From an uncultured Pelagibacteraceae bacterium (GTDB lineage Bacteria > Pseudomonadota > Alphaproteobacteria > Pelagibacterales > Pelagibacteraceae): 36,331 bases of DNA. Under the pieces are notes generated by a model. The model was not told where the DNA came from and made no database searches. It worked only from the letters and a program-made list of their open reading frames with translations. A program made the translations under genes and the position numbers. Shown here one piece after another: positions 4,206 through 12,344 of this stretch (position 1 is the stretch's first letter; every line of letters starts with the position of its first letter). The stretch covers positions 1-36,331 of the forward strand of contig CACAMG010000006.1 of NCBI GenBank assembly GCA_902533585.1, in the 5' to 3' direction.

Positions 4206-5476
4206 TTAAGTTTTAAAACTTCACCAGCAAGATATAAAGATCCAGTTATAAGAACCATATCGTTATTTTGAAGTTCTAGAGATTTTAACGCTTCTTCAAT
4301 TGAATTCTTATATGTAACTTTTTCAAAACCTGTAATTTTTTTTTTTAGATCTTCACCTTTCATTGAATTAATTTGATTGGGAATATCTATCGTTGTTATT
4401 GAATTAATTTTATTTTTAAAAAAACTAATGTATTTTTGATGTTCTTTGTTTGACATCATGCCAATAATAAGATGTTTGTTTGAATTAATTGTATTTAAGT
4501 ATTCACACAATACTTTGGCACCTAATGGGTTATGAGATCCATCAATAAACAGCTTATTATTTTTTACTATATTTTTTAGTTTTCCAGTTTTTATTTCTTG
4601 TAATCTTGCAGTGCAATGCTGAATTTTTTTAATACCTTCTTTAATATTTTCGTCTAAAATAGATAGTTCCTTAATATTTCTAAGTGTTGCAATAGCTGTT
4701 GTTACATTTGATAGCTGAAAATTTCCGTTAAGATTGGGCATTGGAAGCTTTAAACTTCCATATTCGTCTTCATAATAAAAGAAACCATTTTCTGCTAAAG
4801 AATATGAATATAAGTCATTAAAATATATTTTTTTTGATTTATTAGAATTAAGAGCTTTTTTAATTTTATCCAATGTCTCTTTATCAGTTTGTTTTGATAC
4901 AATTATCTTTGAGTTTAATAATGAAGATGTTTTTTCAAATATAATTTTATCTATTGTTTTTTCATTTTTAGGAAGCCAATCGGTATGGTCAAGACCAATA
5001 GCAGTTACAATAGATGCTAAGTTTTTCTGAATAATATTTGTAGCGTCAAATCTATGAAATAGACCTGATTCAATTATATTAATATTCTTATTATATTTTT
5101 TTGCTCCAAGGAAAAATGAAGCAGTTAAAATTTCAAAATATGTAATTTCTTCACCATTATTTATATCTTCAACTTCTGACAAAATTTGGCATAATTCATC
5201 ATCATTAACTTCTTCACTATTATATACAAATCTTTCATTAATTTTTTGAATATGAGGACTTGTATAAATATTACACTTTATATTCGCCTCATTTAAAATT
5301 GCCCTAATAGTTTGTATTGTAGAGTTTTTTCCATTGGTTCCTACTACAGATATACATCGTAAATTTTTTTGAGGACTACCAAGTTTGTTACAAAGATTTT
5401 TTATTCTTTCTAAACTTAAGTCGATTTCCTTAGGATGCAGCTTTTGTAAGCGTTTCAATATTTTCTGAAGTTTCAT
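4202..5476 (-). CDS. folC: Bifunctional folylpolyglutamate synthase / dihydrofolate synthase
   Basis: FolC adds glutamate to dihydropteroate and folates using ATP. The 424-residue protein has the Mur-ligase-like architecture: an ATP-binding loop VGTNGKNST (about residues 45-53), SPHIQKINERF, GLDHTDWLP with a following EKTSSL, and the C-terminal DGSHNPLGAKVL motif. The loop reads GKNS where the family usually has GKGS, a small departure. It is the last gene of the long minus-strand unit. Its 5' end overlaps accD by 47 nt, which is large even for this genome, but the ATG at 5474-5476 gives the normal family N-terminus. Its 3' end overlaps trxA tail to tail. Confidence 0.95.
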   Translation of the reverse strand: MKLQKILKRLQKLHPKEIDLSLERIKNLCNKLGSPQKNLRCISVVGTNGKNSTIQTIRAILNEANIKCNIYTSPHIQKINERFVYNSEEVNDDELCQILSEVEDINNGEEITYFEILTASFFLGAKKYNKNINIIESGLFHRFDATNIIQKNLASIVTAIGLDHTDWLPKNEKTIDKIIFEKTSSLLNSKIIVSKQTDKETLDKIKKALNSNKSKKIYFNDLYSYSLAENGFFYYEDEYGSLKLPMPNLNGNFQLSNVTTAIATLRNIKELSILDENIKEGIKKIQHCTARLQEIKTGKLKNIVKNNKLFIDGSHNPLGAKVLCEYLNTINSNKHLIIGMMSNKEHQKYISFFKNKINSITTIDIPNQINSMKGEDLKKKITGFEKVTYKNSIEEALKSLELQNNDMVLITGSLYLAGEVLKLN

Positions 5477-6362
5477 TTGATATTTCAGAGTGTACTTCAG
5501 AATTTTTCTTAAGCAATATTGATAAAATTAAACTTATTTGTTCTTTTAGGTCTTTTCTTGGAATAACTTTATCGACAAATCCATGTTTTTCTACAAACTC
5601 TGCTGTTTGAAAATCAGGGCTTAATTCCTCTTTTACTGTTGCTTGTATTACTCTTTTACCAGCAAAGGCAATCATACAACCTGGCTCAGCAAAATGTATA
5701 TCACCTAACATTGCAAATGATGCGGTAATACCTCCGGCCGTTGGATCTGTGAAGCAGACTATATAAGGTAAATTATTTTTTTTTAATTCGTTAATTGCCA
5801 AAGTTGTTCTTGTCATGTTTGCAAGTGCGATTGGGCTTTCAAACATTCTTTGTCCACCACCGCATGGAAAAAATACATATGGAGTTTGATTATCAATTGC
5901 GTGTTGAACTCCATATATAATAGCTTCACCTTCAGCAGCTCCGATTGAACCACCAATAAAATCAAAATTAATAGCACCAGCAGTTATATCTATTCCATTA
6001 ATTTTACCTCTTGCAATCATTACCGCACAATTTTGTTCTGTTTTTTTTCGAGCCTCTTTTAATCTATCTTTATAGGATTTTGTATCATTCCAATTTAATG
6101 GATCTTCAGCTGGTGTAGGTGTATCAATTATTTCATAAGCATTTTTTCCAAAAAAAATATCAAATCTTTGACGACAGCCGATCCTATGATGTTTGCCACA
6201 TGAGTTACAGACCCATAGGTTTTCTTGCAAATCTTTTTTTAAAACAGGTCCTTTACAACAACTTGTCCAATCTGAATTTTCAATTTCTTCTTTTGTGGGG
6301 CGTTTTTTAAAAACTTTTTTTATCTTTTCACCAAAATTTAAAGCTTTTGTTAACCAGTTCAT
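5430..6362 (-). CDS. accD: Acetyl-CoA carboxylase carboxyltransferase subunit beta
   Basis: AccD is one half of the carboxyltransferase that makes malonyl-CoA for fatty acid synthesis; its partner accA lies at 28619 in this window. The protein is 310 residues, close to the E. coli length. The crotonase-like core is clear: GGSIGAAEGEAI, YVFFPCGGGQRMFE, and TDPTAGGITASFAMLGDIHFAEPG. The N-terminal zinc ribbon is irregular: it has adjacent C35-C36 (TSCCKGP) and then C52-x2-C55 (VCNSCGKHHR) instead of two regular C-x2-C pairs. The gene overlaps trpA by 4 nt upstream (ATGA) and folC by 47 nt downstream; accD-folC adjacency is common in proteobacteria. Confidence 0.96.
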   Translation of the reverse strand: MNWLTKALNFGEKIKKVFKKRPTKEEIENSDWTSCCKGPVLKKDLQENLWVCNSCGKHHRIGCRQRFDIFFGKNAYEIIDTPTPAEDPLNWNDTKSYKDRLKEARKKTEQNCAVMIARGKINGIDITAGAINFDFIGGSIGAAEGEAIIYGVQHAIDNQTPYVFFPCGGGQRMFESPIALANMTRTTLAINELKKNNLPYIVCFTDPTAGGITASFAMLGDIHFAEPGCMIAFAGKRVIQATVKEELSPDFQTAEFVEKHGFVDKVIPRKDLKEQISLILSILLKKNSEVHSEISNETSENIETLTKAAS

Positions 6363-7159
6363 TTAATTTTATTTTTTAATTTAATAACTATTTTGCTTAC
6401 ATTTGTGACAGGATTTTGTCTTTTTTCTATACTTTTGGTAATTTCTTTACATATTGCACTTCCAACGACCAATCCATCAACTTTTTTAAAACCAGAAATG
6501 TTTTTTTCTGTAATTCCAAAACCAATAACACAATTTTTATTTCTATTTATATTTTTTATTTTTTTGTAATTTCTTATTATTTCTTTTGAAGAAACTTTTA
6601 ATTTACCTCCAGTTGTTGATAGCATGCTTATATAATAAATCATATTGTGAGAATCTTTAATAATTTTTTTCATTCTTATTTTAGAAGTTGTAGGCGACAA
6701 AAGTTGTATAAAATCTATAGAATTTTTTTTACATTTTTTCGAAAATTTTTTATTTTCTGGCCATGGCAAGTCAACAACTATTAAACCATTGACATCAACT
6801 TCTTTACATTTATTTATAAATTTATTTTCTCCATGTTGGTAAATCATATTATAATAACCCATTAAAATAACAGGCTTAGAATATTTTGATTTTTTGAACT
6901 GTTGTACAATTTGAAAAACATCTTTTAATCTTGTTCCTTTTTTTATTGATCTGTAAGCGCTTGTTTGAATTTGTCCTCCATCAGCAATTGGTGTATTATG
7001 AGGAAATCCAATTTCACAAATATCTACATGTTTAGAAATTGAATTTAAAATTTCTAATGATTTTTTTTTAGTATTATCTCCAGCTACTGTATAAGTTAGC
7101 AATGCAGGCCTTTTTTCTTTTTTACATTTTTTGAACGCTAAATTAATTAGTGATGTCAT
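6359..7159 (-). CDS. trpA: Tryptophan synthase alpha chain
   Basis: TrpA cleaves indole-3-glycerol phosphate to indole and glyceraldehyde-3-phosphate; indole is then passed to TrpB. The 266-residue TIM barrel starts with LLTYTVAGDNTKKK. It keeps the catalytic glutamate (CEIGFP) and the catalytic aspartate of PIADGGQIQTS. The Asp that normally lies four residues before the latter is Thr here (HNTPIADG). The phosphate-binding end is recognisable in GFGITEKNISGF and DGLVVGSAI. It starts 5 nt after trpB and overlaps accD by 4 nt, so trpFBA-accD are probably co-transcribed. Family assignment is solid. Confidence 0.94.
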   Translation of the reverse strand: MTSLINLAFKKCKKEKRPALLTYTVAGDNTKKKSLEILNSISKHVDICEIGFPHNTPIADGGQIQTSAYRSIKKGTRLKDVFQIVQQFKKSKYSKPVILMGYYNMIYQHGENKFINKCKEVDVNGLIVVDLPWPENKKFSKKCKKNSIDFIQLLSPTTSKIRMKKIIKDSHNMIYYISMLSTTGGKLKVSSKEIIRNYKKIKNINRNKNCVIGFGITEKNISGFKKVDGLVVGSAICKEITKSIEKRQNPVTNVSKIVIKLKNKIK

Positions 7160-7164
7160 AATTA

Positions 7165-8391
7165 TTAAATTCCTAGCCTTTGTTTCAAAACATCTCGATC
7201 TTTATGTGCGTCTCCACAAGAGTTTACAATTATTATTGTATCTTCGTTTAATTTTGGAGCTAATTTTATTGCTTCAGCAAAAGCATGGCTTGGTTCTAAG
7301 CTAGGATTTAAGTTTTCATATTTCGTAACTAATTTATAAGCATTTAGTGCCGCTTCATCACTAGCAGCAGTATATCGGGCTCTCCTGGTATCTTTTAAAA
7401 AACAATGAAGAGGAGAAACGCCCGGGTAATCTAGTCCTGCACTAATAGATTCTGTTTCTTCTATTTGGCCTTCTTTATTCTGGTTTACATACTGAGCCGC
7501 ACCATGCAATATTCCAATTTTAGAACCATATGTTAAAGGGGCTGCATGTTTCCTACTATTTTTTGGTCCTCCAGCTTCAATGCCAACAAATTCAATTTGT
7601 TTTTTATTATAGTGCATAAACTCATTCCAAAATCCAAAACTTGAAGAACCTCCACCTACGCAATTCAATAATTTTATTTTTTTAGGAATTCTTCCAAATT
7701 CTTTTTTTATTTGCAATGAAAGCTCTCTAGAAATTTGTGACGTGCTCCATCCACAAATTTTTACAAATATATTGGGACCAACTGTAGAACCTACACACAT
7801 ATGTGTAGTATCGCAATTTGATACCCAAAATCTCATGCACTCACTTACTGCATCAACTAAAGTTTGGCTACCGGTAGAAACAGGAATTATTTCTGCACCA
7901 TTTGCACGCATTGCATCACAATTTGGTTTTTGTCTCTTTATATCTTTTGCTCCCATAAAAATTTTGCACTTAAGATTAAATTTTTTTGCAGCCATGCTTA
8001 GCATTTTGCCAGCATATCCAGCACCCGTGTCTCCAATCACATATTTTCTATTTGCTCTTTTAGCAATAAGACAATGAACAGTTGCATTATAAATTTTATG
8101 TGCGCCTCCATTTGCTTGAGATACAACTTTTGTCCAAATTTGTGCACCACCTAAATATTTTGTTAAATTTTCTAATTTTATAAATGGAGTTGGAGCACCG
8201 ACCCAATTTTTAAAATAATAATCTCTATCTCTAATAAATTTCTTATCTTTTCTTAATTTTTCAAAGAGAATAGAAAGATCTTCAACTGGTTTTTTTAAAG
8301 TTTCAGGAATAAAATTTCCACCAAATTTTCCACCCCAAAAGCCATTTTTATCGTGTTGATCAATTAAAGGTATATTCTTTTTAATTTTCAT
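7165..8391 (-). CDS. trpB: Tryptophan synthase beta chain (divergent active site)
   Basis: TrpB is the PLP enzyme that joins indole with serine to give tryptophan. The 408-residue protein aligns end to end with classical TrpB: GGKFGGNFIPETL, the PLP lysine in GGAHKIYNA (K99), the PLP phosphate loop CVGGGSSSFG (244-253), and ESISAGLDYPG. Several residues that are normally invariant differ in my hand alignment to Salmonella TrpB: D121 (GDTGAG) replaces catalytic Glu109, S250 replaces Asn236, A347 replaces Glu350, and C392 (NSCGDAHKD) replaces Ser377. The KRED segment before the lysine is also changed (TKVVSQANGG). The operon position between trpF and trpA argues that it works with TrpA. The ATG overlaps trpF by 11 nt. 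Confidence is high for the fold and family, lower for unmodified activity. Confidence 0.9.
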   Translation of the reverse strand: MKIKKNIPLIDQHDKNGFWGGKFGGNFIPETLKKPVEDLSILFEKLRKDKKFIRDRDYYFKNWVGAPTPFIKLENLTKYLGGAQIWTKVVSQANGGAHKIYNATVHCLIAKRANRKYVIGDTGAGYAGKMLSMAAKKFNLKCKIFMGAKDIKRQKPNCDAMRANGAEIIPVSTGSQTLVDAVSECMRFWVSNCDTTHMCVGSTVGPNIFVKICGWSTSQISRELSLQIKKEFGRIPKKIKLLNCVGGGSSSFGFWNEFMHYNKKQIEFVGIEAGGPKNSRKHAAPLTYGSKIGILHGAAQYVNQNKEGQIEETESISAGLDYPGVSPLHCFLKDTRRARYTAASDEAALNAYKLVTKYENLNPSLEPSHAFAEAIKLAPKLNEDTIIIVNSCGDAHKDRDVLKQRLGI

Positions 8392-9004
8392 TTTTTATTT
8401 TAACAATATTTTTCAAAAAAAAATTTATTTTTGAAATATCTTTTTCTCCTGATGTTTCTAAACTTCCTGAAATATCAATAATATCCGTTATTTTGGAATA
8501 TTTATCAAGTTTATCATCGTACCCAATATTTCCCGCAAGCATTTTAGTTATAGAGTTTGGCACATCATTTAGCAGCCTGTGATCAAATCCTATAGACTTT
8601 TCGTAGCCTTTACTATCAAACAATATAATATCTGAAATTGATTCAAATTCTTTATATTTGTCGACATCTGATTTTTTTTCTATTGTAAGTGCAGTAATAA
8701 TTTTTTTTTTGTATTTTTTTTTAATTGATTGAGTTTTTTCAGGACTTACATCATAAAGCTGATAAAAATCAAAATTTAAATTTTTTATTTTTTCTAAAAT
8801 ATAGTCATCTGGGTTAACTAAAACAGACACAAAGTTTATCCCGTTTTTATCTACATTAATTAATTTTTTTAAATCTTGAAAATTAATATATCTTTTTGAT
8901 TTTTTATAGTTAGTTATGAATCCAATAAATTTTGGAGGGTAATTGTGATTGATAATATATTGCAGGGTATTAGAATTTTTAATTCCACATATTTTTGCAT
9001 ACAT
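8381..9004 (-). CDS. trpF: Phosphoribosylanthranilate isomerase
   Basis: TrpF catalyses the Amadori isomerisation step of tryptophan synthesis. The 207-residue protein begins YAKICGIKN, which carries the catalytic cysteine. It shows GFITNYKKSKRYI (family GFVF..SPR), FVSVLVNP, and ILFDSKG with the catalytic aspartate. It ends with LAGNIGYDDKL and IDISGSLETSGEKD, matching the family's gvDvsSGvE.pG.KD signature in degenerate form. It is more divergent than most TrpF but every landmark is in order. It lies between pyrF (2 nt gap) and trpB (11 nt overlap). Confidence 0.92.
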   Translation of the reverse strand: MYAKICGIKNSNTLQYIINHNYPPKFIGFITNYKKSKRYINFQDLKKLINVDKNGINFVSVLVNPDDYILEKIKNLNFDFYQLYDVSPEKTQSIKKKYKKKIITALTIEKKSDVDKYKEFESISDIILFDSKGYEKSIGFDHRLLNDVPNSITKMLAGNIGYDDKLDKYSKITDIIDISGSLETSGEKDISKINFFLKNIVKIKNEN

Positions 9005-9958: not shown

Positions 9959-11692
9959 TTATTCTTCTTTTTTTTTATTTTTTTTTTTTTTTAATTTATC
10001 AGAAAGTGCTGAAAAAGGTAGGTTTTTTCCAGATAAAGGTGAGCTAAATTTTGAAACTGCTTCTTTATTTTGAATTTCTTCTAATAATTTTATGCTTAAA
10101 GAGACTTTTCTTTTTTCTAGATCAAGCTCAGAAATTGCAACATCTATTCTTTCCCCACCAACAAACCTTGAAGGTCTAGCATCTTCTTGATTGATTGCTA
10201 TTTGAGATTTTTTAATTTGAAACTCCATTTCACATCCTTCAGGTTTCACATTTAATACTTTATTGTCAGAATTTATTACTTTTACAGTTATTGCATCATT
10301 TACTTTTTTATTTTTAAAATAATCCATTGGATCAGTTTTCATCTGCCTTAAACCAACTCTAACTTTTTGCTGATCTTTTTTAATTTCAAGAACTTTAACT
10401 TTTAATTTATCCCCTTTTTTATAATTTTTTAGTTCTTCAGACCCATTTTTCGCATAAGTTAAATCATTTGAATGTAGAAATGCATCTATATCAAATCCAA
10501 GTAAATTAACATAAATTGCATAATCATTCATGCTGCTTACTGTTCCTTCTACCTCAGAACCCACAGGACAATTTTTCTCTAGTTTATCGTAAGGATTTTC
10601 TATAGTTAATCTATGAGAAATTATAATACGTCTTTTTTCCTTATCTATTTCAGTAATCACACATTGCACTTCATCTCCAATTTTAAATATTTTTTTTATT
10701 GGTGGATTTTTTTTTGACCAACTAATTTCACTAGAATGTAATAAAGATGTAAGTCCTGGTTCAAGCTCACAAAAGACACCAAAATCCATAATTTTCACAA
10801 TTTTAAATTTATATTTTGTATTTAGTTCATAGTTTGATATGTGTTCAAAAGGATCTGGAGACAGTTGTTTAATTGAGCAGCTAACTTGAAGTTTTTCATT
10901 ATCTACGGATATAACTAGCAAGTCATGTTTATCTCCAATATTAAAAATTTCATCTGGATGATTGACTCTTGAATAACTTATTTCTTGCAGATGAACTAAA
11001 ACATCTAATTCTGAATTTACATCAAAAAAACATCCGAAAGAACTATAACCTTTTACTACTGCATCTTTGATTACGGTTCCAACTTTGTATTTTTCTATTA
11101 TTTTTGCTTTATCTTCTTTTTTTATTGAGTTAATTATATGCCTACGAGAAACGCATGCATTACCTCTTATCTTATCAAGTTTAATAAGCGCAAATTTCTG
11201 GGGTTCATTTATTAAATGGTCAATATTTTTTAAAGGCTTGTCTGATATTTGGGATCCTGGACAAAACATTAGAGAGCCTGTATCCAAATGTTCGACAATT
11301 ACTCCGCCTTTGCATTTAGATTTAATTTTTCCCACAATGGGTTCATTTTTTTCATAAGCTTTAACTAAAACATCCCATCCTTTAATTTTTTGAGCTTTTG
11401 AAGCAGAGACTAACACTTCACCATTTCTATCCTCCAAATGTTCTATGAGAACAGGAATGCTTTGACCAATTTTTATTTTTTCTGACATTCCTATGCTTTT
11501 TAGTTCATTAATATCCAGCACTGGCTCAGATTTTAAATTTTCTATATATAAAAAAATGTATTTTTCTGTAATTTTAGAAATCTTTCCTTCTACTACTTTG
11601 CCCTCTTCCACTTTTGATTTGGAAGAATGATTATTTAAAAGTTTTTCAAATTCTTTATGTGCTTTTGTTGATTCGTTATTATAAATTTCCAT
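9959..11692 (-). CDS. rpsA: 30S ribosomal protein S1
   Basis: S1 binds mRNA on the 30S subunit and helps initiation, especially on messages without a strong Shine-Dalgarno sequence, as most here seem to be. The protein consists of serial S1/OB RNA-binding repeats, for example KYKVGTVIKDAVVKGYSSFGCFFDV, KFKIVKIMDFGVFCEL and CPVGSEVEGTVSSMNDYAIYV. The total is 577 residues, fitting a six-repeat S1. I chose the ATG at 11690-11692 (MEIYNNESTKAHKEF) over the TTG at 11719 in the track; it still overlaps cmk by 14 nt. The C-terminus is a lysine-rich tail encoded by a run of 15 A and then 9 A separated by one T. It sits in the canonical cmk-rpsA-ihfB order. Confidence 0.96.
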   Translation of the reverse strand: MEIYNNESTKAHKEFEKLLNNHSSKSKVEEGKVVEGKISKITEKYIFLYIENLKSEPVLDINELKSIGMSEKIKIGQSIPVLIEHLEDRNGEVLVSASKAQKIKGWDVLVKAYEKNEPIVGKIKSKCKGGVIVEHLDTGSLMFCPGSQISDKPLKNIDHLINEPQKFALIKLDKIRGNACVSRRHIINSIKKEDKAKIIEKYKVGTVIKDAVVKGYSSFGCFFDVNSELDVLVHLQEISYSRVNHPDEIFNIGDKHDLLVISVDNEKLQVSCSIKQLSPDPFEHISNYELNTKYKFKIVKIMDFGVFCELEPGLTSLLHSSEISWSKKNPPIKKIFKIGDEVQCVITEIDKEKRRIIISHRLTIENPYDKLEKNCPVGSEVEGTVSSMNDYAIYVNLLGFDIDAFLHSNDLTYAKNGSEELKNYKKGDKLKVKVLEIKKDQQKVRVGLRQMKTDPMDYFKNKKVNDAITVKVINSDNKVLNVKPEGCEMEFQIKKSQIAINQEDARPSRFVGGERIDVAISELDLEKRKVSLSIKLLEEIQNKEAVSKFSSPLSGKNLPFSALSDKLKKKKNKKKEE

Positions 11693-12344
11693 ATTTTTTT
11701 TGGATTGCTTTGCTAACAATTTTTTTTAATTTAACCTCCATCTGCTTCATACTTAAAATAGTGGTGTCAACTAATACAGCACTTTTCACAAAACGCAAGG
11801 GACTTATTTTTCTTGTTGTGTCTAAAAGATCCCTATGAATCAGGGCTTTTTCTACTTCTTTAAGAGTAATTTTTTTATTTATTTTTCTGAATTCTTTTAG
11901 CCTTCTTTTTGTTTTTTCTTTAATAGAACATTTAAAAAATAATTTAAGATCTGCCTTTGGATGGATTTTAGTTGCTATATCACGACCTTCGCATATTACT
12001 TTTTTATTTTTCTTTATAAACTGTATTTGAAATTTTTTTAGAGCATTCCTAATAAATTTTTTTTTAGCAATTATAGAAGATAGTTCTGTAACTTTGGAGT
12101 TATATAGATTTTTAGAGTTGAGTTTTTTAACGGTGATACTTTTGGACACTTTATTTATAAATTTTATATTATATTTTCCTTTATTTTTTAATATTTTTAG
12201 CGCCAAATATCTGTACAGTTTTCCAGAAGATAATAATTTAAATCCAAATTTTCTTGCAATAAATTTGCTCCCTGTAGTTTTTCCTGAAGCAGAACCCCCA
12301 TCTACAGCTATGGAAAAATAAATATTTTTTATTTTTTTTTTCAA
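11679..12344 (-). CDS. cmk: (d)CMP kinase
   Basis: Cytidylate kinase phosphorylates CMP and dCMP to the diphosphates. The 221-residue protein has an N-terminal P-loop AVDGGSASGKTT (about residues 13-24), where most members read GPSGSGKGT. The segment SSGKLYRYLA matches the family's D-T-G-x-x-Y-R-A region. It also has CEGRDIATKIHPKADLKLFF (family GRDIGT..fP.A..K.fl), and HRDLLDTTRKISPLR near the end (family RD..DSTR...PL). The ATG overlaps the aroA stop by 4 nt and the 3' end overlaps rpsA by 14 nt. The aroA-cmk-rpsA-ihfB order supports the call. Confidence 0.93.
   Translation of the reverse strand: MKKKIKNIYFSIAVDGGSASGKTTGSKFIARKFGFKLLSSGKLYRYLALKILKNKGKYNIKFINKVSKSITVKKLNSKNLYNSKVTELSSIIAKKKFIRNALKKFQIQFIKKNKKVICEGRDIATKIHPKADLKLFFKCSIKEKTKRRLKEFRKINKKITLKEVEKALIHRDLLDTTRKISPLRFVKSAVLVDTTILSMKQMEVKLKKIVSKAIQKKYGNL

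Follow-up and report, generated by a model that had tools for sequence, protein, structure and literature searches.

A SAR11 (Pelagibacteraceae) trpB gene with changes at normally invariant active-site positions raised a question of whether its product still makes tryptophan. Tryptophan synthase is a textbook model of allostery and substrate channelling, and Glu109 of its β subunit (TrpB) is held essential for activating indole. The initial annotation, made from the letters alone, left two options, namely the usual reaction with a re-tuned site or an altered substrate use. Here we follow this gene through the window (the whole stretch of DNA analysed, 36,331 nucleotides) and its relatives.

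Results

A divergent trpB lies between trpF and trpA

The trpB ORF occupies positions 7165..8391 of the minus strand, stop codon included (7168-8391 without it), and encodes 408 amino acids without interruption. It is flanked by trpF and trpA, as the initial annotation had stated (Table 1). The closest named relatives of the protein, at 90% identity, belong to uncultured Pelagibacteraceae. Against the TrpB profile TIGR00263, it scored 377.2 bits, below the curated cut-off of 392.45, while the homologue in the genome presumed to be that of HTCC1062 scored above it (403.5 bits). With 89.6 bits, it did not reach the cut-off of 518.85 for TrpB2 (TIGR01415). The best solved-structure relatives are all TrpBs, engineered tyrosine synthases derived from TrpB among them. 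The AlphaFold model (pLDDT 82) superposes on P. furiosus TrpB with a TM score of 0.90 and an rmsd of about 2 Å, and the protein is predicted from it to have the TrpB fold.

Table 1 Features of the trpBA locus in the window; residues are numbered in the window protein, with Salmonella equivalents after the equals sign
Feature	Position	Strand	Basis
trpB, divergent SAR11 type A tryptophan synthase β subunit	7165..8391	-	ORF, profile match, alignment, model
trpA, putatively co-adapted α subunit; catalytic E49 and D60 kept, D56 to T	6359..7159	-	
trpF, upstream neighbour; 11-base overlap with trpB	8381..9004	-	
accD, downstream flank of the exchanged trpBA unit	5430..6362	-	
K99 = K87, PLP Schiff-base lysine, kept	8095..8097	-	
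Residues 86-94, WTKVVSQAN in place of Y-L-K-R-E-D-L-L-H (74-82)	8110..8136	-	
D121 = E109, carboxylate activating indole N1	8029..8031	-	
Y126-A127 = Q114-H115, substrate-carboxylate loop	8011..8016	-	
A160 = R148, lost along with Q114	7912..7914	-	
V179 = K167, β partner of α-D56 at the α/β interface	7855..7857	-	
S250 = N236, PLP-phosphate loop (GGGS loop G246-S249 kept)	7642..7644	-	
D321 = D305, kept, with R153 = R141 (closed-state partner)	7429..7431	-	
E366 = E350, kept	7294..7296	-	
C392 = S377; Cys usual in Alphaproteobacteria	7216..7218	-	
TrpA T56 (canonical D56), changed together with β-K167	6992..6994	-	

The PLP chemistry residues are kept while the indole-activating site is changed

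We aligned E. coli TrpB, 31 canonical alphaproteobacterial TrpBs, and 135 SAR11 sequences of the window's kind (type A, window included). Salmonella residue numbers were taken as equal to E. coli numbers, both proteins having 397 amino acids. In Salmonella TrpB, Glu109 uses its carboxylate to hold the proton on indole N1 and to stabilise the charge arising there; in the closed state, Q114 hydrogen-bonds N145 and R148, and R141-D305 locks this state (PMC9512447). The window protein retains H86, K87 (K99), T110-G113, R141, G232-S235, D305 (D321), E350 (E366), G378, K382, and D383, and N145 is also retained in type A. The alignment thus bears out the first reading of the PLP lysine, the glycine loop, and the Asp305 equivalent.

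Glu109, present in 31/31 canonical proteins, is Asp in 135/135 type A sequences, and Asn236 is Ser in 135/135; both substitutions stand as proposed. The KRED segment (76-79) was also correctly called lost, as K88-V-V-S91 is found there, that is, RED is gone. The proposed Glu350 to Ala change, on the other hand, was an alignment error, since the equivalent residue is canonical Glu throughout type A (120/120 and 15/15, i.e., 135/135). Ser377 to Cys is real but misleading as an anomaly, Cys being the majority state (24/31) in canonical alphaproteobacterial TrpBs. Changes that had gone unmentioned are Q114Y and H115A (each in 133 of the 135 type A sequences), N89Y, H82N, R148A, K167V, and R379D, along with G380A and D381H in the window. 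N89Y, V-V-S for RED77-79, H82N, R148A, K167V/I, and R379D are fixed or nearly fixed in type A. In total, 55 of the 135 columns invariant in E. coli and the 31 canonical proteins differ in the window, and 45 are altered in ≥90% of type A.

Type A is a conserved clade of Pelagibacterales

The main-copy TrpBs of other alphaproteobacterial families scored 549-659 bits against TIGR00263, and nearly all Pelagibacterales TrpBs scored about 320-425 bits. Searching the genus, we obtained a TrpB match in 242 of 249 genomes, some of them weak or fragmentary owing to incomplete genomes. Type A is near-universal in Pelagibacterales. In G039, a genome of another family, this slot is occupied by a canonical TrpB (633 bits). 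We also ran a type A profile against 248 further genomes of the phylum; the hits were no closer than ordinary TrpBs (best 360 bits versus 883 for the window).

The phylogeny gives type A as one Pelagibacterales clade (SH-aLRT 100), so the SAR11-wide sharing of these residues suspected at the outset is correct. The stem is 1.6 changes per site and the crown is short. Within the genus, pN/pS of type A trpB is 0.10-0.21, indicating purifying selection, and the ORFs are intact without internal stops. The long stem, the short crown, and the low pN/pS therefore point to an initial burst of change and tight conservation thereafter, not to decay. The residue changes are not due to chance or sequencing error, because E109D and N236S recur in 135/135 independently assembled relatives and pN/pS is low. 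The root of the tree and the order of canonical and type A branches are weakly supported, which bears on early splitting (Kagan) versus long-branch attraction.

Two candidate observations were rejected. Five near-complete genomes (G238, G307, G538, G539, and G518) without trpB might have served as a function test, but our searches found no trpA or accD in them either while trpC is present, so the gaps look like missing assembly; in G309, the sequence ends inside trpA. Transfer of type A between genera was suggested by TrpB identities of 76% between versus 75% within genera, with flanks down to 33-50%. However, comparing alphaproteobacterial families gives about 76% for canonical TrpB as well; constraint therefore suffices, and we claim replacement within the genus only.

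The α subunit changed together with the β subunit

Catalytic E49 and D60 of TrpA are intact in type A by alignment. The α-D56/β-K167 pair bridges the subunits. It is D/K in 30/30 canonical TrpA-TrpB pairs and E/K in 8/8 pairs of two other divergent kinds, types B and C. In all remaining pairs, the unrelated type X included, both α-D56 and β-K167 are lost, and there are 0 mixed cases. The window has T/V. On the tree, the double loss occurred twice independently, so few events are sampled.

trpB and trpA are replaced as a pair

Some genomes of the genus carry a type B or type X pair in place of type A, at the same slot. Type B has Gln or Thr for D305 and Glu for α-D60, type C has Asn for D305, and type X has lost β-K382 and D383. 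The pairs swapped in at this slot retain Glu109. Loci with other divergent TrpBA pairs in the slot are L114, L115, L116, L118, L141, L149, L236-L240, and L242.

In the B and X genomes, trpF and most of the flanks on both sides look as usual for the genus, whereas trpB and trpA do not. Comparing G091 (type A) with G543 or G122 (type B), we found 93-95% identity for rpsA and 91-93% for accD, versus 34% for trpB and 29-30% for trpA. The DNA alignment of these genomes breaks around trpA, trpB, and some 120 bases at the end of trpF, the other break lying near the accD start. In G135, G022, G297, and G121 (type B), accD and/or folC were exchanged as well. In the flank tree, A and B are intermixed and at least five changes are forced for B, while in the trpBA tree, B is one clade. 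Between G171 and G122, trpB to folC shows 94-96% DNA identity and trpF and pyrF only 67-69%; therefore, recent transfer occurs. An assembly artefact is unlikely because G012 (type B) is a single complete contig. Thus, trpB and trpA are replaced as an exact two-gene unit within the genus. On the simplest reading of these sequences, any of the TrpBA pairs would do the same job, and α and β would travel together since they are mutually fitted.

Type A is the only TrpB of cultured SAR11 strains

A second classical TrpB was seen neither in the genus nor in the order searches. A second classical trpB in close relatives, which the initial annotation had named as telling against its proposal, was thus not found, although the window's own genome (67% complete) has a TrpB2-type gene elsewhere (G000:C3:49932-51182; L121:5894-7255; TIGR01415, 631 bits). 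Of the 59 genus genomes searched, this one alone has a TrpB2 above the cut-off; the 58 others, near-complete, have none. Immediately downstream of the TrpB2 gene come a DUF1015-like gene, serC, and serA. Its place beside phosphoserine synthesis genes suggests, we assume, phosphoserine-dependent tryptophan synthesis. In this genome, TrpB2 could share the tryptophan task.

In two genomes, G317 and G266, which we take to be those of HTCC1062 and HTCC7211, type A is the only TrpB. Methionine and glycine are the only amino acids supplied in the media on which the two strains grow: HTCC1062 does so in a defined medium to which these and pyruvate are added (PMC6589437), and HTCC7211 when vitamins are given as well (PMC11452348). 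Kagan et al. 2008 described a distinct SAR11 trpB cluster in Sargasso Sea data, to which the single trpB of P. ubique HTCC1062 belongs, and concluded that this gene must work (PMC2395257). A sole TrpB together with growth without added tryptophan means that the type A TrpB very probably makes tryptophan, with Asp in place of Glu. Our literature searches turned up no biochemical characterisation of a SAR11 TrpB.

Discussion

We consider it likely that the window encodes a working SAR11 TrpB whose active site and α/β interface were rebuilt together and whose gene is exchanged as a unit together with trpA. The type A enzyme would condense L-serine with indole from the neighbouring TrpA, using PLP on K99, and the two subunits presumably form a complex that channels the indole. 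Both the β active site and the interface would have been rebuilt on the stem of the Pelagibacterales-specific clade. While the PLP chemistry on K99 would stay unchanged, D121 may assume the indole-activating role of the Glu109 carboxylate, the surrounding changes bringing this side chain, one methylene shorter, into place. The Q114-N145-R148 network of the closed state and the α-D56/β-K167 contact would be replaced by a new solution that was conserved afterwards. Such co-adaptation of α and β would cause the two genes to be inherited and exchanged as one unit. Several points speak against this reading: the window score lies below the family cut-off (377 versus 392), the same genome carries a TrpB2, and the E109D variant of Salmonella TrpB reportedly reacts much more slowly with indole.

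Of the two options left by the initial annotation, the evidence favours the usual reaction in a re-tuned site over altered substrate use, because type A is the sole TrpB in complete SAR11 genomes, HTCC1062 and HTCC7211 grow as described, the trpF-trpB-trpA order includes a catalytically intact TrpA, and swaps occur with other TrpBA pairs. With an altered substrate, a serine-derived aminoacrylate would be joined to a non-indole nucleophile, and tryptophan would be made elsewhere or taken up. The E109-equivalent position does control the choice of nucleophile in engineered TrpBs, and the tyrosine synthases among the solved relatives came from TrpB. We nevertheless find this option improbable, as position 109 carries a carboxylate in 135/135 sequences, TrpA next door is intact, near-complete genomes have no other TrpB, the cultured strains grow without added tryptophan, and the in-place swaps involve TrpB-TrpA pairs that retain Glu109.

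Relaxed selection in a streamlining genome, with decay instead of functional re-tuning, would fit the long stem branch and the many changes at otherwise invariant sites. It is highly improbable given the pN/pS of 0.10-0.21 and the intact ORFs with 0 internal stops; the changed residues are themselves fixed, and the conservation data already contradict decay. The type A protein might also be a pseudoenzyme that only activates TrpA and lets the indole be released. There is a precedent in plant TSB-like proteins, which arose from TSB via loss of the E109 equivalent, the same site (PMC12727527). TSB-like proteins nearly always have Ala there, however, and type A always has Asp; neither the PLP lysine nor D305 has been lost, and the cell would be left without a TrpB, which makes this reading exceedingly hard to credit.

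Compared with canonical TrpB1 (Salmonella and E. coli, TIGR00263; P. furiosus), the window protein shares the fold (TM 0.90), the PLP lysine, the GGGS loop, D305-R141, E350, and the place beside trpA. It differs by an identity of only 37-42%, by E109D, N236S, Q114Y, H115A, R148A, K167V, and the lost RED, and at 55 of 135 invariant columns. TrpB2 (TIGR01415) is likewise a PLP β-family tryptophan synthase, and its copies in this dataset have Cys377; unlike the window protein (89.6 bits versus a cut-off of 519), they retain Glu109 and carry Arg at 305. Plant TSB-like proteins share with type A a natural change at the E109 equivalent in a TrpB1 descendant, but theirs is Ala and catalytically dead, while the Asp of type A is fixed in the cell's only TrpB (PMC12727527). 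The window trpB belongs to the SAR11 cluster of Kagan et al. 2008, the available part of which deals with distance only and holds no active-site residues, TrpA co-change, or pair replacement (PMC2395257). Both the gene and its place are known, the form is strongly rebuilt, and the outlier cluster has been noticed since 2008. The residue-level analysis, the subunit co-change, and the pair swapping appear new, no prior description having been found in the literature searched, and a literature search yielded no paper on an E109D tryptophan synthase.

More tentatively, SAR11 may hold several mutually incompatible tryptophan synthase solutions (A with Asp109 and no D56/K167; B and C with D305 lost and E/K; X) that cycle as cassettes at one slot. 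The natural Asp109 enzyme would be efficient via compensating changes, and selection, e.g., by an antimetabolite against tryptophan synthase or by scarce serine, would drive the diversification. We regard this extension as possible but somewhat doubtful.

SAR11 bacteria, the most abundant in the ocean, are among the most numerous organisms on Earth, and the Asp109 enzyme is fixed there. A co-changed α subunit and interchangeable pairs at one locus provide natural sets of possibly compatible or incompatible subunits, and the truly required interface and active-site residues become directly testable. Where SAR11 genomes are screened with family cut-offs, tryptophan synthesis can be overlooked, and the window is such a case.

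Other genes around the locus also drew our attention. The accD gene of the window is also divergent, with 272 bits against a cut-off of 317; near its start, at TSCCKGP, a Cys belonging to the expected CxxC zinc pairs seems to be out of place. A second accD-folC version, very different from the first, sits at this position in G022 and G135 (L115, L141). The rpsA gene (window 9959-11719) scored 380 bits against the TIGR00717 cut-off of 577, and RpsA identity between this genus and other Pelagibacterales is only 33-39%, versus 52-59% for SecA. The aroA-to-folC block as a whole looks unusually variable. In another alphaproteobacterium, a second TrpB-like protein (G412:C7:23639-24775, 245 bits) occurs besides the canonical copy.
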